Virus record (IMG/VR): IMGVR_UViG_3300032083_003939
Span: 1-23,567 of that record
Strand: one strand, 5' to 3'
DNA length: 23,567 nucleotides
Source of the DNA: a virus
Shown here: positions 2,381 to 23,567 of the stretch, piece by piece
Position numbering within the stretch: the stretch's first letter is position 1
Layout: every line of letters begins with the position of its first letter
Position numbers and translations under genes: made by a program
Notes under the pieces: model-generated
Database searches by the model: none
What the model was told of the DNA's origin: nothing
What the model saw: the letters and a program-made list of their open reading frames with translations, nothing else

Positions 2381-5300
2381 TTATGGGACTCCTTCAAATA
2401 AATTATTCGTTTCTGATAAATTAGAAGTTTCAAACAAACCAGAAAAGAAAAATGGAACAACAATCACATTTGGATCATTTGAGCCATAGGAGCCTGCAAG
2501 TATTGTTCCAGGAGTATATACAGAAATTTTATCCGACGTAAAACAGTTATTATAAATCATTATGTTTTGTAAAGTATCAGTGTTATCAGTTCTTATTACA
2601 AATGTAATAAGTCCAGGTGCTCTATTTCCAGAGTTAAAAAATTGATTAGAGTGAACCTTTATATTTCTATATATTGCCCCATTATATAACTCTTGAGTTT
2701 CTTCATCTACCGACAAACATACTATTGGCATGTCCAATATATATGGATCTGTCAACAAAGTTCCTGCTAAAAAATTATCTGGACCTTCAAATGTGCAGTT
2801 ATCTATTTCTAATCCACCATTTTGATTTGCAGCATAATTCAAATGTGACAAAATAGAGCAAGTAATCCCTTGTGAGTTGTTTTTAAATCTAATATTACTT
2901 ATTCTTGTTTTTCCAGAAAAGAAAAAGTTAAAACTACCAATGTTACCTATTTTAACTAAGCAATTGTCATAATTAAAAGGGTCAGTAATAATTTGTGATA
3001 GATTTATATAATTAGAATCTCTATATATACTTACATTTCCTACACCAATTAGTTCTACGTAAGATTCTACTCTAAGAGGCTCAGTGATTATGTATTCTCC
3101 CTCTAATATATTAATCCTTGTAATTTTATTTTTAAATATTTTTTCAGAAAAATTACAAAAGTCAAGTGCATCTTGTATACTTGAAAAATTACAATTTTCA
3201 TTATTTTGAGATACTGTGATACTATCTAAAGATTTTTTATAATCTAAGTTCTTCAAGTCTATAGCAAGTTTGGAAATTCTTCCAAAGAATAAGTTTATAT
3301 GGGCCAAATGAAGTACATCTTGACCTTTATAAGGTGATATATTACCTTCTATATTGTAAGGATCATTTACTTCATCAACTATTTCCATACATCCATCTCT
3401 ATTGAATATAATATAAAAGTTTAAAGAAGTTTGATATTGTATATTTTGCTGTCCATAATATACATATCTTATTCCATTTACATAAATTACACCTGGCTGG
3501 ATATCGAATTCTGCAATATTTGTAGTTGAATTATATGTGTAGTTTACAATTTCGCACCCTCTTATAATTCCACTTCCTCTTATCTCATTTCTCGGTCCCT
3601 CTATGAACTTTTCTATAAAACTTTCGGATATTTCTGATTCAGATATAACTCCCTTTTTTCTTTTGTCTTTAATTACAGGAATTCCGCTTTCTTCTCTTAG
3701 TCCAATTATTTTACCTAAACTAGTTGTATATGGAAACCTTCCAATTGAAACCACTGATTTGGGAAGCTCTGGATATCCGTATATTTCTGAAATTATTTGG
3801 GTAGATAAATTTGTACCATTTGAAAATACATCTAGGGTTACAAAAAATAACCCCGTTGGATCAAAAACTTTAAAAGATCCGCTTGATCCAATAAAAACTT
3901 CATCCCCAAATAATCCATTTGGATCTTGCAATCTTGCCTTCAAATCAGTAGATATATTTAGTCTATATAAATCTTCTGTTAAAAAACCTTTGCTAACATC
4001 GCTTATGCAAAATGAAAAGTTTAAGTCAAATTGTAAATTTGAAACTTCTAGCCTTTTCGTTAAACCAAGCTCTCCTCTATCTGAAATGAATATATCAGCT
4101 AGTATTTCGCCATCTCTTTCATCTATTTCTTGAAACTCTAATTCTGATATATTTAGACAATTTTTTAAAAATATAAATTTAGGATTTGCATTTGAATCAA
4201 AAGAAAAATTGTCATACGTATCAAGAGTTACCGTAGTATCATCCATACTTCTTATTGAGTAAGCCCCACTGTTCGTTCCATAATCTTCAATTACAACAAA
4301 TGAATTTTTATCAATGTTTAAATCGCTTAGTTTTCCAGATACGACAGACAGTTTTCCGCTAAGATTAGAGACATTTATACTGGCAGAGTCCAGTATGACA
4401 GGAGAGTCTATTGATGTAAATTCTCCATTTACAAAGGCAGACTTTGAGTTTTCTCCATATACTTCTAGGTCTATATATCTATCCAAGCCTATTGCGCTTG
4501 CTGTACCAGATAATATCTTAATGTATCTGTCTTTTATATCTCCATAAAAGTTTGGAATCATATGAGATAAAACTATTGCATAGCAACTATCATATCTTAT
4601 CTTTGTGGCAATCAATGGTATATAATTATCTGATGAGTATTGATTTATTGATAATATAGCAGTATCTATATTTTTAAACGGAAGACTTAGGGATGGATTT
4701 ACAAGCGGAATATTATGAGTATTTCCATCTACTTCAATATTTAATACATCTGAATTATTTAAGAACTGAAAATATAATGGTTCTCCTACTATCGTTGCAG
4801 AAGATGGATCTATAACTATTGCGCTAGATATATTTGAAGTTGTAACATTGGGTCTTACGGCTGGCAAAAAGGAAGCCATATTGAAGCTTTTATAATAGTT
4901 TTTATATATAGAGCAAATTGTACTTATAGAGTATTCAAAAGCTGGAGTTCCAAATACTCTAACGGAGTCTATCTGACCATTATTTACGGAAAAATCTTTT
5001 ACTAAAAAATATTGATCTCCAATCGACCCCTCTGCGTGAATTTTAAGTATATCCATTTTAGATATACCAGATAATGGGGACTGAGGGGAGTTCATGTATA
5101 TATCTGTATAGGGAAGAGAGTCGATTATATAGTTACAGCCAGTGGAATTAACTACATATTCCCCTTCTGAATCAGAGTAAGAGTCATAAATTTTACCTCT
5201 TCTAAGTATCCCGTTTGAACATATTTTTAATAAAGTTTTTGCGAAAGAAACAACTTCTAAATTTGAAAGCTCTTCTATTGCGCTTTGTACGCTAAAACCC

Positions 5301-5950
5301 TCTATGTTTTCTGATCTAGAAGAATCAAAAAATATTTGATCTGCCTCATGAGCATTATTCAGAGAAGATACAGATGATGCATTTAAATTTATATGAGTTG
5401 ATACGATTTCAGTTAATAAAGATTGAAGATCTTGCTCTTCAAAAGATGATCTAGATGTTGAAGAAGAAGCATTAGTTATTCCCTTTACATTTATAGACTT
5501 TGCGTTATGCCTATTGGGGAAGTCTTCTGTAAGGTGTGAGGACAAACTTCTATTTATTTCTTCTAATTTATCTAAAACATCTTTTAACACTCCAAATGTT
5601 CCGCTTATTTCACTATACAGTAATGATGTAGGGTAATCTAATTTTATTTTTGATTCTTTAATATTTGCAGAATCAGATACGTCCCTATCTGTTATTGGTC
5701 CAGATAGAAGCCCCATTTTATTTATAGCTTCTGTTTTTATATTTCCAGAATCATCTAAAGATTTATCTAGTCTTATAGATACAGTGGAAGCTGGACCACC
5801 CTGCGGATTTATGCCTAGGGTTTTTTCTATATTTAAAATAGCTGATCTAAGAGAATTAATTATTGAAGAATTTATTTGTGTAACGTTATCTCTGACCGCA
5901 GGCAATTCTACCGAGGTATCTATTTGATTTGGATATTTTGATTTAGACAT
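2381..5950 (-). CDS. Giant tail fiber/receptor-binding protein B, beta-helix type
   Basis: This 1189-residue protein starts at ATG 5950, with a purine-rich GAGAAA site upstream. Residues 1 to about 125 are nearly the same as the start of the neighbouring 1725-residue fiber (both begin MSKSKYPNQIDTSVELP), which suggests a common anchor to the same virion site. About residue 200-230 is a phage-fiber-like phrase (ADQIFFDSSRSEN ... VQSAIEEL). The middle is beta-rich and Ser/Asn-rich. About residue 820-835 has a GVIYVNGIRYVYYG module that the paralogue also carries. From about residue 908 a pectate-lyase-like right-handed parallel beta-helix begins (SIQDALDF; ILEGEYIITEPLRVESYVEL; LEIDNCTFEG) and continues nearly to the end. 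Beta-helix tips in phages bind or cut host polysaccharide; no catalytic residues can be assigned by eye. There is no signal peptide. It lies 20 bases after the paralogue and is surely co-transcribed. Confidence 0.8.
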   Translation of the reverse strand: MSKSKYPNQIDTSVELPAVRDNVTQINSSIINSLRSAILNIEKTLGINPQGGPASTVSIRLDKSLDDSGNIKTEAINKMGLLSGPITDRDVSDSANIKESKIKLDYPTSLLYSEISGTFGVLKDVLDKLEEINRSLSSHLTEDFPNRHNAKSINVKGITNASSSTSRSSFEEQDLQSLLTEIVSTHINLNASSVSSLNNAHEADQIFFDSSRSENIEGFSVQSAIEELSNLEVVSFAKTLLKICSNGILRRGKIYDSYSDSEGEYVVNSTGCNYIIDSLPYTDIYMNSPQSPLSGISKMDILKIHAEGSIGDQYFLVKDFSVNNGQIDSVRVFGTPAFEYSISTICSIYKNYYKSFNMASFLPAVRPNVTTSNISSAIVIDPSSATIVGEPLYFQFLNNSDVLNIEVDGNTHNIPLVNPSLSLPFKNIDTAILSINQYSSDNYIPLIATKIRYDSCYAIVLSHMIPNFYGDIKDRYIKILSGTASAIGLDRYIDLEVYGENSKSAFVNGEFTSIDSPVILDSASINVSNLSGKLSVVSGKLSDLNIDKNSFVVIEDYGTNSGAYSIRSMDDTTVTLDTYDNFSFDSNANPKFIFLKNCLNISELEFQEIDERDGEILADIFISDRGELGLTKRLEVSNLQFDLNFSFCISDVSKGFLTEDLYRLNISTDLKARLQDPNGLFGDEVFIGSSGSFKVFDPTGLFFVTLDVFSNGTNLSTQIISEIYGYPELPKSVVSIGRFPYTTSLGKIIGLREESGIPVIKDKRKKGVISESEISESFIEKFIEGPRNEIRGSGIIRGCEIVNYTYNSTTNIAEFDIQPGVIYVNGIRYVYYGQQNIQYQTSLNFYIIFNRDGCMEIVDEVNDPYNIEGNISPYKGQDVLHLAHINLFFGRISKLAIDLKNLDYKKSLDSITVSQNNENCNFSSIQDALDFCNFSEKIFKNKITRINILEGEYIITEPLRVESYVELIGVGNVSIYRDSNYINLSQIITDPFNYDNCLVKIGNIGSFNFFFSGKTRISNIRFKNNSQGITCSILSHLNYAANQNGGLEIDNCTFEGPDNFLAGTLLTDPYILDMPIVCLSVDEETQELYNGAIYRNIKVHSNQFFNSGNRAPGLITFVIRTDNTDTLQNIMIYNNCFTSDKISVYTPGTILAGSYGSNDPNVIVVPFFFSGLFETSNLSETNNLFEGVP
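5576..5950 (-). repeat. Fiber anchor module, copy B (paralogous N-terminal domain)
   Basis: This part encodes residues 1 to about 125 of fiber B. It matches residues 1 to about 125 of fiber A (10774-11148) almost without gaps. The longest identical runs include GLLSGPITDRDVSDSANIKE and LDYPTSLLYSEISG. The DNA is clearly related but has drifted mainly at third codon positions, so the duplication is old and maintained by protein-level selection. Confidence 0.85.
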
Positions 5951-5970: not shown

Positions 5971-8900
5971 TTAAGTTATCAAAGTAATCGTAACAGCTTT
6001 CTTTGGACCAAAGTCTGGTATGCCAGCATCTTCGGCTAATCCAGCAGATGCATTATTTGCTCCAGATGGAAGTATAAAGTTATTAGAAATAGGCCTAGAG
6101 TAGGCATCCAGTCTTGTAAAATACCTAAAAGATACGGTTACGTGAAACCCATAATTATAAAATTCAAAACTATTTGGTCCGCCAGATTGGTATGTTACAT
6201 TTGCATCAATCTTTCCAAAAATAGGCAAAATGCTTATTAGGTCTCCAGCAGAAAATGACATTTTATATTTAAGCATATCTTTTGTAATTATAACCGTATC
6301 ACCTCTATCTTTAAACTTTGGAAAAGGAGAGGTATAAGAGCTCCAAGTGTCTGACTCTAAATTTTGATTATTCATTCTTGCTATATACTCTTCTGCATCA
6401 CTCCAATAGCTTGGCTCGTAAGCCTCAGAGCCTCTTGGAAAATCATTATCTCCAGATATATTTACATTTCTCATATAGGTATATAAAACTTTTCTTCCAT
6501 CATTAATATTAGGGTTTTCCAAATATTTATTTAGAGTGGACTCGCTCTCATTTGTCCCAGATTGTAAAATGTTATTTAAAAACCATATTTTTTCCAAGAC
6601 CCAATCAGTACCTGTTGTTGCTTTTATAACTATTTTGTCTATATATCCATCATAAGGAGCTGTCATAAAACAGCTTCTTGGTACAAGATAATATAAATCC
6701 TGATCTTCTTCTGACCTTATGCCATTTAAATCGGCTTCTGATTTATATATAGTATTTGTTTTATACGGAGGTGACGCATCCCAGGTCTCGCCACTATCTG
6801 GATTCTCTTCGGTAAAAGAACTGGTTTCAGATAACCCAACCCAAGCAAAATACTGACCATCTGCCGTATACTGATAATCTGGAAAAAAAGAACAAAAGAC
6901 GCTTCTTGTGTGAATTCCATGATCTATTGCTGGTAATTTTCTTAGATGATCCCAGTCTGTAGATCCAGAGTTAGGATGTCCAAGATCAGCAGCAGTATAA
7001 ATATTAGAATTCTTTCTTTTTATTACCCTATACTGGTTATCTGTAACTAGAGGAGTGGTTCTACCAGTTAGAGTCTCTCCGTAGCCATATAATATAGGCC
7101 CCTCTGTCTGTGCAGATAAAAATGATGTCATCTTTCCAGTTTCAGAAACTACATCATCATTTGCAATTATTGAACCACCAGTAGAAGTTATGTTTCCAGA
7201 CGCTATTATTTCTGAACTGGTAGTTATATCTCCCTGAGATATTAAACCGCCATTTTCTATAGTTATATCTCCATTCAAACATCTTATATAATCTGAGGCG
7301 GTTATGCTTCCAGTTGTTACAGATCCGTTTAGATTTATTGGCCCACCATTTACTTCGAAGATACCTCCTTCCAATATTAATGAGTAGCCATTTTTTATAT
7401 AAACATTTGTATAAAACTCAGATAAATTAGAATTTGAAATACCTGCGTTAGATATATTTCCAACTTTTATATCACCATGAATATTTATTCCAGTTGGTAC
7501 AGTTGATACCCAATAAGAATCTTGAGAAGTAGTTTTACCCCTATTCCCAATATATGTATTCCCAAATATTTTTGGAGCATAAGAACTCGTAGTCTCCATG
7601 AAAGAGGCTAGAATTCCTGATGTCTCAATAAAAACCCTTTGACCAGGATTTTCTACAACATTGTTAGATATATTTAAGAGAAGAAATCTATCTTCTGCAT
7701 TGTAGTATGAGGCATTATTTGGAGATGTAAATAGAATATTTGTATATTTAAAGTAACAATTATTTACAGTAAGACCACCTATGAAAATATTTTCTCCAGG
7801 AGATATACTTTCTTGTCTATTGTATATGATCCCAGGTCTATAAACTTGCCTTTGATCATCAACTAAAACTTCTTCGAATTTACAACTATCGAACTCTATA
7901 ATTCCTGAGTTTATTTCGTTTGAAGAATTAAGTAATACATCAGTATCATATAATACTACTGAAGTATTTAAAAATCTAAGATTAAAAAACCTAACTTTTC
8001 CTGAAGACAAATTTTGATACCCAGGATAAACTGGAAATGTTTGAAGGTTTGAACCTCCAATTCCCAAGAACCCCTTTTTGGCTATAAGTCTATCTGAAGC
8101 GTTTGTATTTGACCAATCTTCTATTGCGTTATAGTTTAGGATTACCTCTATAGAAGTTGAGTTTCCTTCTCCAATTATATTTACGGGAAAATCTATCCAT
8201 AGACCTTCTTTTGCCAGGCTTGTTATTAAGCTTTGATCCACATATCCAGAGAAAAATACTGGGTTAGCATTTGGAGGGAAGTCCAAAGTCGTATCTACTT
8301 CGTAGACATAATGTCCAGATTTAATATAAACTTCTGCATAATCAAAGTGAGTATATATTTCATGCATTCTTTTTGCAAACTTTAGGGCTTCACCCACATT
8401 GTTAAAGTGGCCAAACCCATACTCTTTGGATACGATAATTGGCCCAAAAACTTTTCTGTCAATGTCTGCTATCAAAAATCTAGTATCATAAACCTCTGCG
8501 GTTACCCCGTCATATTCAACTATACCCACAACTACATTTCTAACATTATCTTTTGGAAAATAACACTCTCCCAAAGAATTAGTCTTTGAGGGAGCAGTCT
8601 TTACAACTCCATTTTCATCTATATAAATAAATATTTTGTCATTTGAAGTAAGTACTGTTCCGCAATAGATTTCGTTTGAAGAAACCTCTATTCTTCTACC
8701 TTGGATATAACAAACTCCGCTTCCAATATTAAATGAAAAAGTTGTATCGGAATTCAAAGAAATATTAGATACTCTGCATCCAGATGCAACACCAGAAGAT
8801 CTGGTTTCAAGAAATGGTAGTTCAATATGTTTTTCTTTATATCTTGAAGAAATATTTTTTTCTACTACAGAGCCTTTTTCAGCAAGATTTCTATAGTATA

Positions 8901-11148
8901 GGTGACCTGGGCCTGAAAACCTTCCGTTAAATCCATTGTAATTTAACCTTCCTACAATTAAATTACTTAAATCTGAGACTTGCTCGTTCATCTCGCAAGT
9001 CATAATTAAATTTTGCCCAATTGAATCTATATAATTAATTATCGTTTCAGAACTTTGAATCCATAGATCCAATGAAACACCAAACTCTGAAGATCTTAGA
9101 TTAATAAAATAATCTTCTGCATTCTTAAGAGAGTGCTTTTCTTCATCAATATAAATCTCTATAGTATCAGAAGACACTTTGTCTATGTGTACCGAAAAGC
9201 TTTCCGAAAAACCTCTAAAATCAATAATTCTTGCAATTGAGTCATTTGCTACAACATAAGCTTTATACTCCAGTCTTGATGAAAAATAACACTTATTACT
9301 TTCATCTAAAAATACATCACCAACCAAGGCTTTATACGTTCCAGATATTTTTTTAAAGTTTTCATTTGAAAGAGAGCAGGTATTATTTATAATAGAAAAA
9401 GTGGGCGTGTTTGTTTCTGCACTAAAGCCCGTTGACATATCTAGAGTAAGCTGACCAGCAGTTACTTTTTTAATTATATAACTTCCACTATTTGAAGCAG
9501 AACCAGTGATGTGAAGTATATCATTTATTTTTATTCCAAAAGTTCTAAGATCCGTATCTGAAGATTCGACAATATTTGTTCCAGGGCTTATAATTAGATT
9601 TGCTGTATTTAACTTTTTGGAAAAAGAAGAATATTTTGATCCTCCGATCATATAACTATGGTTATAAATTCCACTAAACGGCACTCCTTCCGCATAAGAT
9701 AATCCAAGGCTATCTATTCCGTCATCAGTACCCCTCTCTATCTTTAAAGTATGTTGTTCAGAATTTGAATTTGGAACCCTGCAATAGAAAACTATTTCCA
9801 AGTTTCCTTCTATAGTTGCCGTTGTTGCTGCAAATAATGCGTTTAGTTCAGAAGCCCTCTCGTTTATCGCTTCAACGATTGTAAATGGAGTCTGAGAAGA
9901 TACAGATGGAAGATGGCAAGATATATTGTAAGTTACTGCGTCAACACTAATCACTATATTGCTTGAGGATGAAGACACCAAGGAATGATTTATTCCTCTA
10001 GATGCAATAGTTGTAGAGTTCGGACTTATTAGCTCAACTATATTTTTTGAGGTTAAGTTAGGATTGCTTATATACGCCAAGCCAAGAGAGCTATCTGACA
10101 AATATCCTTTTTTATTCTCTGTTACAGTTATTTCCCCAGAGAAATTTTCGGTTAAGTTTCCAAATACTTCTATGTTTGTAGATACTCCATCTTCTGTAAT
10201 TTTATTTACTTGAAATGGGGTAACTTGACCTCCAACCTCTGCATAAACAACATCAGACTTTTCAATACCTGTAAAGACAGAGTCTATTGAAAAGTTAGAA
10301 TATTGGCTATCTGAAATTGTAGAGTACGCGATTCCTTCTGCGTTTGTAGTTGTTATAACCTCAGAATTAAATTCATTTATGTCTCCATAATTATAATCAT
10401 AAGACAAAACTGCATTTCCATGAAGTATATCCTGGTGATCCTTTACAGATGTATCAGAAAAAGAATTTATTTCAGAAATAGCATCCTGTACATTGTCAGC
10501 CAAAAGTTCAGTTTCTGTATTGTCAAAAAATATTTGATTTGCAGTGTGAGAATTGTTTGATAGAGATATTCCGTTTCCAGAATAATTGATGTGCCCAGAT
10601 ACTATCATCTCAATGGCCATTTGTAAATTTTGCTCTGACAGGCTATTTGTAGATGTATCAGAAGAAACTCTAAATATTTCCTCTAGTTTTATAGCCTTTG
10701 CCAAATGCTTATTTATGGCTTCTTCACTTATGTGAGAAGATAACTCTCTATTTATTTCTAAAAGCTGAGATATAATGTTTTTTAGCTCGCCAAATATACC
10801 GCTAATCTCACTGTACAACAGTGAGGTTGGGTAGTCAAGATTTATTTTAGATTCCTTTATATTTGCAGAGTCAGAAACATCCCTGTCTGTTATTGGGCCT
10901 GACAATAAGCCTATAGAAGAAATTGCTTCTTTTTTTAAGTTTCCATTATCATCTAGAACTCTATCTAATCTTTGAGAAAGAGTCTGACTTGGAGAACCTT
11001 GAGGGTTTATCCCTAAAGTTTTCTCTATATTTATAACAGCAGATCTCAAAGAGTTTATGGCTTCAGATCCAAGTTGAAGAATATTATTTCTAACCTGCGG
11101 CAGCTCTACTGATGTGTCTATTTGATTTGGGTATTTTGACTTTGACAT
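5971..11148 (-). CDS. Giant tail fiber/receptor-binding protein A, multidomain, 1725 residues
   Basis: This is the largest gene in the window, starting at ATG 11148 with an AGAGAG site upstream. Residues 1 to about 125 are the anchor shared with fiber B. About residues 200-230 carry the NVQDAISEI phrase typical of fiber shafts. The middle is Ser/Asn-rich beta sequence. A GVCYIQGRRIEVSS module (about residue 825) precedes a predicted parallel beta-helix from about residue 913 to 1186 (YGFGHFNNVGEALKFAKRMH; EVYIKSGHYVYEV; NIIGEGNSTSIEV; LTVNNCYF). Residues about 1256-1346 form a regular Gly/Asn/Ile-rich stack (GDITIENGGLISQGDITTSS), probably a triple-stranded beta shaft. The last roughly 380 residues, rich in aromatic residues, form a tip domain that fiber B lacks. 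The protein is expected to trimerise and bind the host surface. No chaperone or autocleavage motif was recognised. Confidence 0.82.
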   Translation of the reverse strand: MSKSKYPNQIDTSVELPQVRNNILQLGSEAINSLRSAVINIEKTLGINPQGSPSQTLSQRLDRVLDDNGNLKKEAISSIGLLSGPITDRDVSDSANIKESKINLDYPTSLLYSEISGIFGELKNIISQLLEINRELSSHISEEAINKHLAKAIKLEEIFRVSSDTSTNSLSEQNLQMAIEMIVSGHINYSGNGISLSNNSHTANQIFFDNTETELLADNVQDAISEINSFSDTSVKDHQDILHGNAVLSYDYNYGDINEFNSEVITTTNAEGIAYSTISDSQYSNFSIDSVFTGIEKSDVVYAEVGGQVTPFQVNKITEDGVSTNIEVFGNLTENFSGEITVTENKKGYLSDSSLGLAYISNPNLTSKNIVELISPNSTTIASRGINHSLVSSSSSNIVISVDAVTYNISCHLPSVSSQTPFTIVEAINERASELNALFAATTATIEGNLEIVFYCRVPNSNSEQHTLKIERGTDDGIDSLGLSYAEGVPFSGIYNHSYMIGGSKYSSFSKKLNTANLIISPGTNIVESSDTDLRTFGIKINDILHITGSASNSGSYIIKKVTAGQLTLDMSTGFSAETNTPTFSIINNTCSLSNENFKKISGTYKALVGDVFLDESNKCYFSSRLEYKAYVVANDSIARIIDFRGFSESFSVHIDKVSSDTIEIYIDEEKHSLKNAEDYFINLRSSEFGVSLDLWIQSSETIINYIDSIGQNLIMTCEMNEQVSDLSNLIVGRLNYNGFNGRFSGPGHLYYRNLAEKGSVVEKNISSRYKEKHIELPFLETRSSGVASGCRVSNISLNSDTTFSFNIGSGVCYIQGRRIEVSSNEIYCGTVLTSNDKIFIYIDENGVVKTAPSKTNSLGECYFPKDNVRNVVVGIVEYDGVTAEVYDTRFLIADIDRKVFGPIIVSKEYGFGHFNNVGEALKFAKRMHEIYTHFDYAEVYIKSGHYVYEVDTTLDFPPNANPVFFSGYVDQSLITSLAKEGLWIDFPVNIIGEGNSTSIEVILNYNAIEDWSNTNASDRLIAKKGFLGIGGSNLQTFPVYPGYQNLSSGKVRFFNLRFLNTSVVLYDTDVLLNSSNEINSGIIEFDSCKFEEVLVDDQRQVYRPGIIYNRQESISPGENIFIGGLTVNNCYFKYTNILFTSPNNASYYNAEDRFLLLNISNNVVENPGQRVFIETSGILASFMETTSSYAPKIFGNTYIGNRGKTTSQDSYWVSTVPTGINIHGDIKVGNISNAGISNSNLSEFYTNVYIKNGYSLILEGGIFEVNGGPINLNGSVTTGSITASDYIRCLNGDITIENGGLISQGDITTSSEIIASGNITSTGGSIIANDDVVSETGKMTSFLSAQTEGPILYGYGETLTGRTTPLVTDNQYRVIKRKNSNIYTAADLGHPNSGSTDWDHLRKLPAIDHGIHTRSVFCSFFPDYQYTADGQYFAWVGLSETSSFTEENPDSGETWDASPPYKTNTIYKSEADLNGIRSEEDQDLYYLVPRSCFMTAPYDGYIDKIVIKATTGTDWVLEKIWFLNNILQSGTNESESTLNKYLENPNINDGRKVLYTYMRNVNISGDNDFPRGSEAYEPSYWSDAEEYIARMNNQNLESDTWSSYTSPFPKFKDRGDTVIITKDMLKYKMSFSAGDLISILPIFGKIDANVTYQSGGPNSFEFYNYGFHVTVSFRYFTRLDAYSRPISNNFILPSGANNASAGLAEDAGIPDFGPKKAVTITLIT
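10774..11148 (-). repeat. Fiber anchor module, copy A (paralogous N-terminal domain)
   Basis: This part encodes residues 1 to about 125 of fiber A and is the partner of 5576-5950. The conserved text (NSLRSA, NIEKTLGINPQG, TDRDVSDSANIKESKI, YPTSLLYSEISG) is far closer between the two genes than the rest of the proteins. The conserved part is therefore probably the docking domain, while the outer parts have diverged. Confidence 0.85.
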
Positions 11149-12357: not shown

Positions 12358-14306
12358 TTAAAATGATATATTAAATCAGTTTTATCCAGCCTTTTAAGAG
12401 ATACCTTTTGTCTTCCAAAATGTTTATACATTATTTTTTCTCTACTTACATTTAATACTTCGTAGAAAAATTCCTGGTCCCCAGAAAAATCGAATCTAAC
12501 GATTACATCTCTATCCCTTATTGTTGGGATCGGTAAAGTCCAACAGCTTGGCTCATATACTTGCTCAAGATGACTTTTGGGGTCTAACTTCAAATCTTCA
12601 ACCGTATCAGGGAATGACATCATCATTAACTTATCCTGCCTTCTTCTGTTTATGAATTGGTCATAGCCTCCTACAAAACCAGTTCCATAACATTTACTAC
12701 AAGTTCTTGCCTTTGGCTTTCCTCTTCTACTGGTGACACAATCACAAGTTAGCCCATCCCATTTTCTTTTTAATAAAACCACGGGTTCTCCAACTTGATC
12801 CAATATAACCTCTTCTCTATTTAACATTCTGTCGTAAATATTAAACCCTCTAGATCCATTAAATTCTCCTCCAAGATATGACCCACAGTCGTCTATACCC
12901 TGAAGAACTCTATCTGGTAGAGCCTGGTGATATCCGCAAAAATCAAAGCCTTGAAAGAACTTTGAATCTTGATCTTGATAATCCGTTACAACAAATCCAG
13001 TGCCAGCATATTCCCTATCTGTCTGATATCCATCTTCGTAAGTTGGGGTCCCCATTATAACATTATCATTTGAATCTTGACACTTCAAAAATAATTTTAC
13101 TTCATCTCCAGATACAAATACACCCTTAGAGGTATTATTTAATCCTCTTTGAGATATTACAAAGTAATTTTCATATCTGTTTATTGACTCGTATCTTACA
13201 ACTTCTGTTTGCCCAATAACCAGAAGGCCTTTATCTGGATATCCATCTGTACTATCTGAATAAAGAACTAATGCATCAGAATCAAATTCTGCAAATACAG
13301 AAGTTGGATTTGGGATTAGATATCCGTTATCAACAGAATCCATCCCTGCAAAGTCAAAAACACCCTTATATGATTCAAGACATCTTACTGCCCAATATAA
13401 CTGATCATTTGGCTTTAATCCGTCAATTAAAATTGTTTTATTTGAAGTTATTACTTTTGGTTCATATCCGAAAAAATCTTTATTTCCGTTATTATAGTAT
13501 ATAAGATAAAAGACTTCAGATTTATTTGATCTGGGTAATATATCTGGTGACTCAACTTCTATCGAATCTCCAATTCCAACGTTTCTTGCAAACATAATCC
13601 CTTTTGTTGGACCAATAAAACCCGACATTGGAAAGGCATCTGGAAAAATTACTTTCTGTATATCTACTTCAAACTTTAACCTTCCAACTTCTGTGTTTCC
13701 AGCAGAATTAGATATACTGTATTTCAAGTTATACTTTGAGTTTCTAAAAAACTCTGGGTGGTCTATCTTTACAACCAAAGTATCTGAGTTTACTATTGAT
13801 GATCCTAAGTTGTCAAAAAAACTTTCAAATTGACCATTGGTTATAACTTTGTTTTCATCAATTGTAATAGACAGAGTTGATGGATCTATATTATAATTTG
13901 AGTCTGCAAATTCCAAATAAAATATAGAGTTTTCGGTTATTTTTGTATTTAAATTTGTATTAATCAAAACTGGAGTTGATTTATCTATATAAAAAACATA
14001 TTTGTCATTAAATCTTTTGTTTCTTAAGTTTGATGCGGTTACTTCAACGGTGACAATTTCGTCTAATGAAAAATTATATGATCTATTTAAAACTACGCTT
14101 AAGTCTAAATTTATAAATTCAATTGTTGATTCAGAAAAGTTATTTTTAAAAGATCCATTTACAAAGGCAACTTCGCCATTTACTTTTATAATGATGGAAT
14201 TAAGCTTAATGCCATATTCATCACTTTTTATAAAGAATGAAATATCTGAGTCTACTGGATTATTTTTTTCACCTGGTGCAGGACTTTGTCCTATTAATTT
14301 AAGCAT
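12339..14306 (-). CDS. Virion structural protein with Ig-like repeats and a CxC/CxxC zinc-binding motif
   Basis: This 655-residue protein starts at ATG 14306 with GGAG five bases upstream, inside the end of the preceding gene. The N-terminal part (about residues 1-220) resembles successive bacterial Ig-like/cadherin-type beta-sandwiches (opening SPAPGEKNNPVDSDISFFI; SILTI-type strands; YSISNSAGNTEVGRLKFEVD). The middle carries more beta-rich modules, including a fibronectin-like phrase (ILIDGLKPNDQLYWAVRCLE). Around residues 519-540 is CDC, then 12 residues, then CSKCYGTGF, giving Cx1Cx12Cx2C as in DnaJ-type or rubredoxin-like zinc knuckles. The C-terminus (EFFYEVLNVSREKIMYKHFG) is mixed alpha/beta. 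Ig-like arms plus a C-terminal particle-binding region suggest a neck, baseplate or decoration protein. Which of these it is cannot be told from sequence. Confidence 0.7.
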   Translation of the reverse strand: MLKLIGQSPAPGEKNNPVDSDISFFIKSDEYGIKLNSIIIKVNGEVAFVNGSFKNNFSESTIEFINLDLSVVLNRSYNFSLDEIVTVEVTASNLRNKRFNDKYVFYIDKSTPVLINTNLNTKITENSIFYLEFADSNYNIDPSTLSITIDENKVITNGQFESFFDNLGSSIVNSDTLVVKIDHPEFFRNSKYNLKYSISNSAGNTEVGRLKFEVDIQKVIFPDAFPMSGFIGPTKGIMFARNVGIGDSIEVESPDILPRSNKSEVFYLIYYNNGNKDFFGYEPKVITSNKTILIDGLKPNDQLYWAVRCLESYKGVFDFAGMDSVDNGYLIPNPTSVFAEFDSDALVLYSDSTDGYPDKGLLVIGQTEVVRYESINRYENYFVISQRGLNNTSKGVFVSGDEVKLFLKCQDSNDNVIMGTPTYEDGYQTDREYAGTGFVVTDYQDQDSKFFQGFDFCGYHQALPDRVLQGIDDCGSYLGGEFNGSRGFNIYDRMLNREEVILDQVGEPVVLLKRKWDGLTCDCVTSRRGKPKARTCSKCYGTGFVGGYDQFINRRRQDKLMMMSFPDTVEDLKLDPKSHLEQVYEPSCWTLPIPTIRDRDVIVRFDFSGDQEFFYEVLNVSREKIMYKHFGRQKVSLKRLDKTDLIYHFNYIINT

Positions 14307-18293: not shown

Positions 18294-19937
18294 CTAACCA
18301 AATGATACCATTTGACCCATCACAATGTATGAGGAGCTAGTTCTTAAAATGCTAAAGCTAAACACATCTTTTTTGTTTGAGTTACCAGATGGAGAAGAAC
18401 CACCTTCCCAATTTATAGTAAGAGAAGAACCGCCATTTACGGTGATTGAATTAGGCATATATGCAGAGGACCCCTGATCTATTATCACAGTTATATTTGC
18501 AGCTTCTCCTACCTCTGCTCCAAAGTTAGTTAAGTTTACTGAAAAATTTGAAGATACATTTTCATGATAAAATATATGCCCATTTGAACAATCGTGAGAT
18601 GACTCTCCACTTTTTTCTTCAAAAGATTCGTATACTCCTGATGAAACACTAATGCTTCCAGACAGATCTAGCTTTGAACCGTTGAAGGTAAGGTTTGCAG
18701 AATCCTGAAGATCACCATTTGAGTCTGAAAAAGCTACCCTTTGATTGGTTAATCCAGAAGAAGACAAAAACCCTGACAGATCTGGCGGAGTATAAGATAA
18801 CACGCCGCTTGAACTATTATAGGATAGGTTTGCAGTCCCAGCCGAAAGAACAGATACAGAAATATCTGTTAAGTCAATAAATCCACTATCATTTGTTAAT
18901 TCACTAACGTTTAAGCCAGATATTCCAGAGATATAACCACTGTCATTTGTTAAATCGCTTATGTTTAATCCAGAAATTCCAGTGATATAGCTGCTTAAAT
19001 CTGGGGGCGTAAAGGTTAATACTCCGTTTAAATTATCATAAGATAATCCAGACGCTCCAGCTGCTTGCGTAGATACAGAAATATCTGTTAAACCAATAAA
19101 GCCGCTGTTATTTGTTAAATCACTGATATTTAAACCAGATATTCCAGTGATAAATCCACTGTCATTTGTTAAGTCACTAACGTTTAAACCAGATATTCCA
19201 GTGATATAACCACTGTCATTTGTTAAGTCACTAACGTTTAAACCAGATACTCCAGTGATATAACCGCTATCATTTGTTAGCTCACTAACGTTTAAACCAG
19301 ATATTCCAGTGATGTAGTTGCTTAAATCTGGAGGTGTATACGTAAAAACTCCAGTAGCTGTAGAGTAAGCTAATCTTGCATTTCCAGGTGTCGCATTAAT
19401 TACAGAAAAGTTTGAAAAATCAGTTGAAGAAGAACTGCTTGAAGAAGAGCTGCTTGAAGACCCGCTTTCTTTTATATATGATATTACAATTATATCTTCG
19501 TCAGAAATAATTTCAGAATATTCATTTTTTATTGAAAATGATCTATTTCCAGTTTCAGATATATCAGAATTTATATTTAAGCCATTTATATAAACAGATA
19601 GTGAGTTTGTTTTATAATTATATGTAGAAAGAAATGAAAGGCTTCCTGGACTTAATTGATCTGATATATTTTCAATAAAAAAATCTGCAGACGCAGTTAT
19701 TTCATTTTGTATAATGTTTTGTACAGTTAAATCAACCTCTGTAGCAACAGTCTCTTGAACAATTCCTTCAACTGTTTCAGAACTAATTAAATTTTTTGAA
19801 ATAGATTTTTCAAGAGAATCCTCTATTATGTTAGATCTGTACTCTATAGAATTTGTTTCAGAATTAAAAAACTGATAGGTTTGTTGAACTAAACCGTCAA
19901 CTATTCTTGCAGGCCTTCTAACTTCAATTACAGGCAT
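18294..19937 (-). CDS. Tail fiber with 18-residue LTNDSGY repeats and polyserine linker
   Basis: This 547-residue protein starts at ATG 19937 with GGAGT a few bases upstream. Residues 1 to about 95 form a helical, probably trimeric N-terminal region (SLEKSISKNLISSETVEGIV). A beta domain follows (LSFLSTYNYKTNSLSVYING), then a linker of 12 consecutive serines. The shaft has six 18-residue repeats of the type SGLNVSELTNDSGYITGI in two blocks (four and two), separated and flanked by three modules ending in TPPDLS. The C-terminal part (about residues 440-547) is a compact beta domain with ITVIIDQGSSAYMPNSITVN and VFSFSILRTSSSYIVMGQMV, seen at the ends of many phage fibers. The LTNDSGY repeat is a well-known phage fiber shaft motif. 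The gene comes right after the 19967-19994 terminator, so it should have its own promoter or depend on read-through. Confidence 0.85.
   Translation of the reverse strand: MPVIEVRRPARIVDGLVQQTYQFFNSETNSIEYRSNIIEDSLEKSISKNLISSETVEGIVQETVATEVDLTVQNIIQNEITASADFFIENISDQLSPGSLSFLSTYNYKTNSLSVYINGLNINSDISETGNRSFSIKNEYSEIISDEDIIVISYIKESGSSSSSSSSSSSSTDFSNFSVINATPGNARLAYSTATGVFTYTPPDLSNYITGISGLNVSELTNDSGYITGVSGLNVSDLTNDSGYITGISGLNVSDLTNDSGFITGISGLNISDLTNNSGFIGLTDISVSTQAAGASGLSYDNLNGVLTFTPPDLSSYITGISGLNISDLTNDSGYISGISGLNVSELTNDSGFIDLTDISVSVLSAGTANLSYNSSSGVLSYTPPDLSGFLSSSGLTNQRVAFSDSNGDLQDSANLTFNGSKLDLSGSISVSSGVYESFEEKSGESSHDCSNGHIFYHENVSSNFSVNLTNFGAEVGEAANITVIIDQGSSAYMPNSITVNGGSSLTINWEGGSSPSGNSNKKDVFSFSILRTSSSYIVMGQMVSFG
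18870..19320 (-). repeat. Tandem 54-base (18-residue) repeats within fiber gene
   Basis: Six units of 54 bases encode SGLNVSELTNDSGYITG-like text. Four are contiguous (about 19092-19314) and two lie further on (about 18873-18990), with a TPPDLS module between. Neighbouring units differ by only a few bases, for example NVSDL/NVSEL and SGY/SGF, so recent unit duplication or gene conversion is likely. Unit boundaries are approximate. Confidence 0.85.
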
Positions 19938-21589: not shown

Positions 21590-21817
21590 TCAAGAGTAAA
21601 CCATTTTCTTTAAAGTTTTCAAGTTATTGTCAAACTTATAAAACTCTGAATTTATAAATTCCATTTTATACTCATCAGCTTTTCTGTCTGGGTCTTCTAT
21701 CTCAAAGTGATATCTGCCACTAGGCTTTCTTTCCGCCTTGAGCAATCTCATACCTTTTGTTACCATATAGGCAGCAAGAGCTAAGTCTGATGTTTGAAAT
21801 ATATTATTCTGATTCAT
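21590..21817 (-). CDS. DUF5659-like small protein
   Basis: This encodes 75 residues from ATG 21817 with a GGAAAG site upstream, overlapping the end of the preceding gene by 14 bases. The sequence TSDLALAAYMVTKGMRLLKA, then RKPSGRYHFEIEDPDRKADE, and a C-terminal FINSEFYKFDNNLKTLKKM helix, matches my memory of the DUF5659 domain, which is common in phages and in bacterial mobile regions. That domain has an N-terminal helix pair, a beta hairpin and a C-terminal helix, filling the whole protein here. The function is unknown. No catalytic motif is seen. Confidence 0.7.
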   Translation of the reverse strand: MNQNNIFQTSDLALAAYMVTKGMRLLKAERKPSGRYHFEIEDPDRKADEYKMEFINSEFYKFDNNLKTLKKMVYS

Positions 21818-22121
21818 AATTTCTTTCCATTATTATACAATCTTGTTCAACACTATCTTTAGTAATATCATTAAAATTAGCATCACCGCCATCTTGTGCA
21901 ATATTTTTATTTTCTTGTTCAGCATATTGCTCAGATGCGGATTTTAAATCATTTAAGTTTTCCTCAAATTCAAAGAAATCCTCATATACATCATTAGGGT
22001 GTTCTTCTTGTTTTATAGTATTATTAGTATCTCTTCTAGAAAATTTTTGAAAACTAGCTCTGTCTTCTAATTTTTTAGATTGTTTATATACAGTTCTCTG
22101 TTTTAATTTATCTGGTGTCAT
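21804..22121 (-). CDS. Hypothetical acidic, probably disordered protein
   Basis: This encodes 105 residues from ATG 22121. The start lies one base from the GTG start of the divergent metallophosphoesterase gene, and no Shine-Dalgarno site is visible upstream. The N-terminal third is basic (KLKQRTVYKQSKKLEDRASF), the rest is acidic and Asn/Glu-rich (EDFFEFEENLNDLKSASEQY) with little hydrophobic core. There is no signal or membrane segment and no recognised family. It could be a small assembly factor or a regulator of the operon. It overlaps the DUF5659-like gene by 14 bases, which supports it being a real coding gene. Confidence 0.62.
   Translation of the reverse strand: MTPDKLKQRTVYKQSKKLEDRASFQKFSRRDTNNTIKQEEHPNDVYEDFFEFEENLNDLKSASEQYAEQENKNIAQDGGDANFNDITKDSVEQDCIIMERNYESE
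22080..22107 (+). promoter_or_regulatory. Candidate promoter for the plus-strand phosphoesterase
   Basis: TTGTTT (22080-22085) and TTTAAT (22102-22107) are 16 bases apart and resemble -35 and -10 boxes of the sigma-70 type. They lie inside the start of the divergent gene. Transcription would begin near 22114, leaving a leader of only about nine bases before the GTG. AT-rich sequence gives many chance matches. Confidence 0.3.
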
Positions 22122-22122
22122 A

Positions 22123-22791
22123 GTGAAAAAAGATTATGTTAGATTAGTGGTTTCAGACTTACATTTTGGAAGCCATAATTCAAAAGAAAAAGAGTTTTTT
22201 GAATTCATAAAAGAAAAAGAATTTGATGAATTAATATTAGCAGGCGACATAGTTGATTTTATTAAAATACCATCATTTACAGAAGAAACTTACAATATAT
22301 TAAATTATATTATAAGGAATGACAAAAAGATTATATACATTATAGGAAATCATGATAATTCTTTTGATAAATTCGATAATAAAATTTTGGGTAATATAAA
22401 TTTTAAGTCAGAATATAATTTTAATTACGATGGAAGAACCTTTCATATTGAACATGGGCACAGGCTTGACTCTGGAGTTGTGGGCTGGAATTATCTTATA
22501 AAATTTATATCTATAGTGCAAGATTTCTTTGAAAGAAAATTTAACTTAGAGTTATCTAAATATTTAAAGTACTTAACTACATCTAAGAAAAGAGTTATGA
22601 GGGTCTGGGACTTTTTACATAAAAGCAAATATGATGTATTTATAATTGGACACACTCATTACCCAGAAGCTTTAATTTGGGTAGATGAAGATGAAAATAT
22701 AAAAACATATATAAATACTGGTGACTGGGTTGAGCATTCAACGTATGTTGAAATAAAAAACGGACAAACTCACTTGAAAAAATATAAATAA
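22123..22791 (+). CDS. LpxH-like calcineurin-type metallophosphoesterase
   Basis: This is the only plus-strand gene, 222 residues, starting at GTG 22123. All metal-binding motifs of the calcineurin-like phosphoesterase fold are present in order: SDLHFGSH (D12, H14), AGDIVDF (D42), GNHDN (N76, H77), EHGHRLDSG (H111/H113) and GHTHYPEAL (H177, H179). They are followed by NTGDWVE (residues 198-204), which is typical of the LpxH/UDP-diacylglucosamine-hydrolase branch. It should be a soluble, two-metal hydrolase of a phosphodiester or pyrophosphate; the substrate is unknown. No SD site is visible before the GTG. Its orientation, its place between a terminated capsid unit and the next unit, and its metabolic type of function mark it as a moron-like insertion. 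Cargo could be nucleotide or lipid A precursors, which is inference. Confidence 0.88.
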   Translation: MKKDYVRLVVSDLHFGSHNSKEKEFFEFIKEKEFDELILAGDIVDFIKIPSFTEETYNILNYIIRNDKKIIYIIGNHDNSFDKFDNKILGNINFKSEYNFNYDGRTFHIEHGHRLDSGVVGWNYLIKFISIVQDFFERKFNLELSKYLKYLTTSKKRVMRVWDFLHKSKYDVFIIGHTHYPEALIWVDEDENIKTYINTGDWVEHSTYVEIKNGQTHLKKYK

Positions 22792-22792
22792 A

Positions 22793-22820
22793 AAGCCCCA
22801 CAGAATTAACTGCGGGGCTT
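22793..22820 (-). terminator. Rho-independent terminator of the capsid gene
   Basis: The arms AAGCCCCACAG and CTGCGGGGCTT (plus strand) pair over 11 positions with one exception. Read on the minus strand that exception is a G-U wobble; on the plus strand it is an A-C mismatch. The minus strand continues into a T-rich tract (TTTTTATTTATATTTTTTC), while the plus strand does not. It therefore terminates the minus-strand capsid transcript, 28 bases after its stop. Confidence 0.88.
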
Positions 22821-22848: not shown

Positions 22849-23567
22849 TTAGGAAGCACCGTCAACTTCACCCATTGCAACACCACGTGGGTTCACAATA
22901 CCGATACCAATGATTTCGGATACTACGAATCCAAGCTTAAGTTGCTTAGGCTCATCTGCAGGAATAACTTCGATATCTTGTCTTACTGGCATAACACCAA
23001 CGAACTCAGGATCAGCGCAAGCAAAAGATGTACCAGCAGGAACAATCTTAGAAACGATGATATCTGCACCGAAGATGTGACCATAAAGACCAGTTTGAAG
23101 CAATTCACGCTGAGTTACAGGATCAACTTGAGAAGCACCAGCTGCACCAGCAGATTCCCAAGAAAGAATGTCTGTAAACTCATTGATGTTAAGGAAGTAC
23201 TTAGAGGTAACCAAGTCCCAACGATCAATTTGACGCTTAAGGTTCAACATACCATTTTTGGTAAGAATTCCAACTGATCCTGAATCAAGATCTTGCTTTG
23301 TGTTCTCACCACCAAGAGTAGATTGACCAGCAAACTCAAGAGCAGAAAATACGTTAGCATCTTCTTGTGCTTGAATTTCTTGGCGAGCTTTTTGTTGAGC
23401 ACGATCAATAACATTGAAACGTCTACGCTTAACTTCAGCAATTCTTACAGTTGGGTTTGAAACAATTTCAAACTCAGGAATAGTCACGCGATCACCGAAA
23501 ACTCTTGACTCAGGAGCAGTACCATTAGATGATACAACAACTGCAGCCACATCGATATCACGATCAT
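22849..23567 (-). CDS. Major capsid protein, C-terminal part (runs off window)
   Basis: The frame is open to the right edge, so the true start is outside; the GTG at 23548-23550 is internal, with DRDIDV read before it. About 239 residues are visible. The sequence IPEFEIVSNPTVRIAEVKRR, then LVTSKYFLNINEFTDILSW, LLQTGLYGHIFGADIIVSKI, CADPEFVGVMPVRQDIEVIP and IGIGIVNPRGVAMGEV has the look of an HK97-fold major capsid protein of large phages. It has a helix-rich region first and the beta-rich axial and peripheral domains after. Its codons are clearly less AT-biased than in the rest of the window, as expected of the most abundant virion protein. It ends at TAA 22849-22851, just before a strong terminator. 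I am confident it is a head protein and fairly confident it is the major one. Confidence 0.78.
   Translation of the reverse strand, partial: DRDIDVAAVVVSSNGTAPESRVFGDRVTIPEFEIVSNPTVRIAEVKRRRFNVIDRAQQKARQEIQAQEDANVFSALEFAGQSTLGGENTKQDLDSGSVGILTKNGMLNLKRQIDRWDLVTSKYFLNINEFTDILSWESAGAAGASQVDPVTQRELLQTGLYGHIFGADIIVSKIVPAGTSFACADPEFVGVMPVRQDIEVIPADEPKQLKLGFVVSEIIGIGIVNPRGVAMGEVDGAS

Follow-up and report, generated by a model that had tools for sequence, protein, structure and literature searches.

A single gene inserted in reverse orientation at a hotspot beside the capsid gene of a marine phage probably encodes an active di-metal phosphoesterase of the LpxH2-like type, for which a nucleotide or a nucleic acid is the favoured substrate. 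We hold this reading as a whole at about even confidence. The DNA analysed, a tailed-phage fragment of 23.6 kb (23,567 nt) from a marine IMG/VR record, will be referred to as the window, and its features around the phosphoesterase gene are collected in Table 1. The nearest named-phage match of its capsid protein is gp27 of Bacillus phage G (47.5% identity), and the window phage is a marine relative of this giant Bacillus phage. The phosphoesterase ORF is the sole plus-strand gene of the window, the other long plus-strand ORFs being shadows of minus-strand genes, and its GTG at 22123 is separated from the opposing ATG at 22121 by the single base 22122; in both respects the earlier note on this DNA was confirmed. 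An exact search of the viral collection with the 19-nt start junction retrieved no second copy.

Table 1. Features at the start junction and the capsid end of the window, with the evidence for each.
Feature	Position	Strand	Evidence
LpxH2-like calcineurin-type metallophosphoesterase CDS, 222 aa, GTG start	22123..22791	+	PF12850, PF00149; viral homologues; AF2 model
Weak Shine-Dalgarno-like GGTG, 5 nt before the GTG	22114..22117	+	anti-SD duplex -5.4 kcal/mol
105-aa CDS, conserved gene normally after the capsid gene	21804..22121	-	dozens of related contigs with a homologue behind the capsid gene; alignment at the ATG
Candidate -10-like CATAAT, 11 nt before the ATG of the 105-aa gene, within the phosphoesterase CDS	22133..22138	-	consensus match; 37 upstream regions
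Intrinsic terminator of the capsid gene	22793..22820	-	11-pair stem then TTTTTATTTATA on the minus strand; dG -20.7 kcal/mol, z -5.7
Major capsid protein, 3' part, 5' end beyond the window edge	22849..23565	-	phrog_2522 5.8e-49, NF042927 5.8e-39

Two further observations concern the remainder of the window. The adjacent very large genes 2381-5950(-) and 5971-11148(-) have near-identical starts (MSKSKYPNQIDTSVELP...), which suggests duplicated tail-fibre-like proteins, and a 54-bp tandem repeat of four copies (90% matches) is present at 19096-19313 within a gene for a 547-aa protein (18294-19937(-)).

At its 3' end the phosphoesterase gene is convergent with the capsid gene, the stem 22793-22820 lying in between. 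It had been proposed that the two genes run towards each other up to a terminator. The convergence and the strong stem were both found, but the T-run is present on the minus strand only, just TT following the stem on the plus-strand side, so that the terminator serves the capsid gene.

In IMG/VR the capsid protein has 166 relatives, and the contigs of the best 80 reach lengths of up to 335 kb. The gene next to the capsid gene in about 37 non-redundant related phages is a homologue of the 105-aa gene, in most cases with a gap of 40-140 nt, and the N-termini of these homologues align exactly at the window ATG. An accidental start of the 105-aa ORF through N-terminal truncation was considered and rejected, as its N-terminus coincides with the conserved start of its relatives. 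At the C-terminus of most of these homologues there is a conserved Cys...CKRQAPK...C..H motif that may bind zinc and is missing from the window protein and from those of L068, L014, and L025. Besides the window, no phosphoesterase homologue was detectable by sequence around the capsid gene in the flanking DNA of the best 80 of the 166 capsid loci; four other capsid relatives carry one elsewhere in the genome (43-47% identity). In some lineages the junction behind the capsid gene holds other cargo, namely a full seryl-tRNA synthetase (L055:8829-10148(+), TIGR00414 1e-142), a full adenylosuccinate lyase, PurB, together with other genes (L074:10850-12160(+), TIGR00928 3e-147), an HNH endonuclease (L080), or proteins of unknown function. 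By its varied gene content, this junction is an insertion hotspot.

The phosphoesterase thus sits as an extra gene between two genes that adjoin in most relatives, and its interpretation as a moron was strengthened by this reverse-strand insertion at a junction where most relatives lack it. As to the promoter and terminator of its own that a moron would be expected to have, no promoter for the gene exceeded chance in the region scan, and the T-run of the stem lies on the minus strand only. Flanked as it is by the capsid gene and other virion-region genes, the gene might alternatively have a structural or morphogenetic role in this phage group and lie on the other strand by chance. We consider this very remote, as the junction is empty of the enzyme in nearly all relatives examined, homologues in related genomes are located far from the capsid gene, and the protein belongs to an enzyme family. 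The refuting condition set in the earlier note, homologues in the same place in all related phages acting as a structural gene, was thus not borne out.

Only one other phage with the phosphoesterase reversed at the capsid junction was found, L125, which was located through the enzyme search. Its gene order is a 157-aa homologue of the 105-aa protein (-), a 55-nt spacer with GGGGGAGAG and a strong Shine-Dalgarno sequence for the phosphoesterase, the phosphoesterase gene (+), a sulfotransferase-like gene overlapping its end (L125:8665-9297(+), Sulfotransfer_4, 6e-6), a terminator-like stem, and the capsid gene (-). A common clade for the L125 enzyme and that of the window was not rejected (p-AU 0.52), and a single ancestral insertion common to both with later loss of the spacer in the window is therefore possible. 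The GC and GC3 contents of the phosphoesterase gene match those of the rest of the window (GC3 21.6), giving no sign of fresh acquisition. Recent acquisition from a host was rejected on these grounds and because the viral homologues form one clade apart from the bacterial proteins (100/100).

The GTG start is supported by the homologues, whose starts coincide with it or deviate by a few residues; that of L107 starts MKKDYIRLVISD with its ATG exactly at the place of the window GTG. No in-frame ATG, GTG, or TTG precedes the GTG at 22123. The absence of a Shine-Dalgarno sequence on both sides, as previously described, holds for the 105-aa gene, which shows no pairing before its ATG (anti-SD duplex energy +1.8), but not for the phosphoesterase gene, since its GGTG falls between the 5% and 10% tails of random 20-mers from the window. 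For the remaining window genes tested, the values range from about -2 to -12. A promoter suggested at 22080-22107 (TTGTTT-16-TTTAAT) could not be substantiated: it shows 8/12 consensus matches, its -10 element has no A at position 2, and it was not reported by a promoter scan in which the promoter-like sites of the region, 14 compared to 11.7 in shuffles, were at chance level. Because the start regions overlap, any promoter of either gene would lie in the coding sequence of the other. A better case for a near-leaderless transcript can be made for the opposing 105-aa gene than for the plus-strand gene. Among 37 non-redundant upstream regions of 105-aa gene homologues, including those of the window and L125, 19 contain a -10-like element with its end 5-19 nt upstream of the ATG compared to 7.4 in mononucleotide shuffles, and 18 carry a motif resembling a Shine-Dalgarno sequence. 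This excess, together with the placement of the CATAAT and the missing Shine-Dalgarno sequence, makes a near-leaderless start of the 105-aa gene plausible, if only as a pattern. A GTTCA motif was observed immediately in front of the phosphoesterase start codon, or a few bases away from it, at 16 of 23 loci of the lone-gene clade (L128, L130, L134, L141, L145, L146, and others).

The one-base spacer, the GTG start, the weak Shine-Dalgarno sequence, and the lack of a promoter above chance in the scanned region would also be expected of a decaying or unexpressed gene, in which loss of the spacer removed the promoter and the Shine-Dalgarno sequence and left the frame intact but silent. This is rather improbable, since the frame is full length and retains every catalytic residue in a gene that has no close relatives, and a weak Shine-Dalgarno sequence is still present.

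The membership of the protein in the metallophosphoesterase superfamily is clear from its scores of 47.7 bits against PF12850 (Metallophos_2, 2.1e-12) and 45.5 bits against PF00149 (Metallophos, 1.5e-11), with curated cut-offs of 27 and 21.5 bits. Searches with the single protein gave nothing significant in the PDB (phmmer), one match of 25% among the named phages (tblastn), and no match in the viral scan; homologues were found instead with a five-sequence alignment, which detected 70 viral loci, 69 of them full-length, at 41-52% identity. Bacterial relatives (26-32% identity) derive mostly from Bacteroidota and Verrucomicrobiota and carry GNHD and GDW. Viral and bacterial proteins are split in the tree with support of 100/100, the phage clade being placed on a long branch. 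Two homologues from metagenome-assembled genomes (L177, TMED69; L178, WOR-3; 48-50% identity) group inside the phage clade and probably represent phage sequence, either binned with these genomes or integrated in them. In an alignment of 84 sequences (the window protein and 83 homologues), the D-x-H, GD, GNH(D/E), H, and GHxH motifs are invariant. The full set of metal ligands noticed earlier was verified, D12, H14, D42, N76, H111, H177, and H179 being present in the window protein and unchanged in all 84 sequences. The enzyme is probably active, and a canonical two-metal mechanism is expected from its superfamily.

A structural model computed by AF2 from the 84 sequences reached a pLDDT of 84 and a pTM of 0.81; an earlier model from 5 sequences (pLDDT 51) was set aside. 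In the structural alignment the first 23 rows are all LpxH (Z 16.8-18.8), followed by the small subunit of DNA polymerase delta at 15.1, and a profile including the bacterial relatives matches LpxH chains over the full length at 6e-17. Ranking and profile matches together indicate an LpxH-like fold, and among known structures the modelled fold is closest to LpxH, in agreement with the original description. The viral structure library yielded distant metallophosphoesterases only, which does not argue that closer viral structures are lacking. A role as a proofreading subunit, suggested by the small subunits of Pol delta and Pol D (Z about 15, next after LpxH), was set aside, as it would rest on the shared superfamily fold only. 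The helical insertion typical of LpxH is present, with helices at residues 113-167 between the motif IV His and GHxH, and the LpxH alignments span residues 6-222. The insertion is modelled at a pLDDT of 52-73, so its details and the substrate pocket are uncertain.

Despite this fold, the protein does not appear to be an LpxH. All known LpxH enzymes are recognisable by an Arg where GNH(D/E) has its His (PMC5016852, PMC3087551); the window protein has GNHD at residues 75-78, with His in all 84 sequences where E. coli LpxH carries Arg. It scores 27.4 bits against NF003743 (cut-off 134) and does not match TIGR01854 (cut-off 190) at E 0.001. With the Arg absent and the equivalog scores far under the cut-offs, membership in LpxH fails, and the GNHD motif and the fold leave a resemblance to LpxH2, bacterial LpxH paralogues that keep GNH(D/E) and whose function is not known (PMC3087551). 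We therefore found no support for the suggestion that the enzyme acts on lipid A precursors, i.e. that it hydrolyses UDP-2,3-diacylglucosamine like LpxH and alters outer-membrane synthesis of the host during infection. This possibility draws on LpxH being the nearest solved fold over the whole length including the helical insertion, on the profile match given above, and on chlamydial LpxG, a GNHD metallophosphoesterase able to carry out the same reaction (PMC4807358). Owing to LpxG, the GNHD motif alone does not decide against lipid A, which keeps some probability. We nevertheless regard it as improbable: the Arg is missing throughout the family, the equivalog cut-offs are missed by about 100 bits, LpxH is matched by a viral-only profile at no better than E 0.003, and an Lpx gene was recognised among the neighbours in none of the loci inspected. 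In addition, work cited in PMC3087551 describes that LpxH2 of P. aeruginosa, which has GNH(D/E), fails to complement an E. coli lpxH mutant. With the hallmark Arg absent, the phage enzyme most likely acts on another, perhaps nucleotide-like, molecule.

A substrate of this kind is also what the neighbouring genes of the homologues point to. Among 53 loci, many of which belong to one phage clade, DnaE is found within three genes at 7, ThyX at 19, a dUTPase-like cluster at 21, Fpg at 10, and a HhH-GPD-like gene at 17, and 30 of the 53 have any of these or a related neighbour cluster. The neighbours in the lone-gene clade are ThyX, dUTPase_2-like, Fpg, and HhH-GPD-like genes together with a nucleoside deoxyribosyltransferase-like gene, and in several phages with the closest enzymes the next gene downstream is that for DNA polymerase III alpha. 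By such guilt by association, a nucleotide or nucleic acid is the favoured substrate, although in the window and in L125 the phosphoesterase is not near nucleotide genes. The solitary orientation recurs as well: at 23 of 50 non-redundant viral loci, mostly from one phage clade, the gene is opposite in strand to both neighbours, which makes it a habit of the family. At L107, the gene after the phosphoesterase (8728-9720(+)) is adenylosuccinate synthetase-like (Pfam 9e-81), scoring 113 bits against the PurZ model (cut-off 300) and 246 against purA (cut-off 396); a 2-aminoadenine DNA pathway in this phage is conceivable. The same locus has a sulfotransferase-like gene by eye (13323-13985) a few genes from the phosphoesterase. 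A role as PAP-phosphatase alongside the sulfotransferases of L125 and L107 was dropped, as there is only one match each.

Lone, mobile, and non-structural cassettes at hotspots are often counter-defence genes, which counts for a reading in which immune escape is aided by an enzyme that breaks down nucleotide immune signals or targets nucleic acid of the host. Mycobacteriophage A10ZJ24 encodes a metallophosphoesterase, Gp48, that impairs the integrity of host DNA and dampens anti-phage genes (PMC12287305), making counter-defence a serious if unlikely rival. A few homologues weakly match models of anti-phage phosphoesterases, but these matches are far under the cut-offs, and the gene is widespread and in many phages has replication and nucleotide genes as neighbours, which fits housekeeping equally well.

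Returning to the reading that we favour, the cassette would have entered in reverse between the capsid gene and the conserved next gene of a phage-G-like marine phage. Loss of a spacer such as the 55 nt of L125 may then have brought both starts within one base, an original insertion at that very point being the alternative. The phosphoesterase would be expressed as its own transcription unit. By analogy, the seven ligands would bind two metals, probably Mn2+, and a metal-bridging hydroxide would attack the phosphorus with the assistance of His77 of GNHD, where LpxH uses Arg; the helical insertion probably selects the substrate. As a bolder and tentative extension with a modest chance of being correct, a phage family with the LpxH fold may have exchanged lipid A chemistry for a nucleotide or nucleic acid substrate and spread as a self-contained reverse-strand cassette, for example as a phosphodiesterase of immune signals or as a nuclease partnering the phage DNA polymerase III alpha.

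Taken together, the gene is real and its product probably active, the case for lipid A being weakened and that for a moron strengthened. A stand-alone enzyme with the LpxH fold has been kept repeatedly in this group of marine phages and in large phages without this capsid type. Its substrate would reveal a phage route into envelope synthesis of the host or, with greater probability, a phosphoesterase that serves nucleotide metabolism or counter-defence. It would also bear on the function of bacterial LpxH2, and a true exchange of substrate would point to that of LpxH2. As a correction, an LpxH-like fold need not mean lipid A. The divergent pair of starts one base apart offers a small test case for overlapping promoters and for weak Shine-Dalgarno or near-leaderless starts in compact phage genomes.

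Among known systems, Gp48 of A10ZJ24 is likewise phage-encoded and non-structural and is comparable at the level of the superfamily, but its phage belongs to a different group (PMC12287305). The SbcD/gp47-type exonucleases of phages share the superfamily as well; the larger related genomes have frames of 390-410 aa of this general kind, putatively SbcD judging by size, at another locus, compared to 222 aa for the window protein. LpxH (PDB 5B49, 5K8K, 6PH9, 8QJZ) has the same calcineurin-like core, the same seven ligands, a helical insertion between motifs IV and V, and a match over the full length, whereas the window protein differs in His77 for Arg80, GDW for GAW near the C-terminus, a shorter insertion, and an identity of ~18%. 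LpxH2 shares with the phage enzymes the retained GNH(D/E), an LpxH-like size, and the insertion; from the bacterial relatives, which may be LpxH2, the phage enzymes are set apart by a long, fully supported branch of their own.
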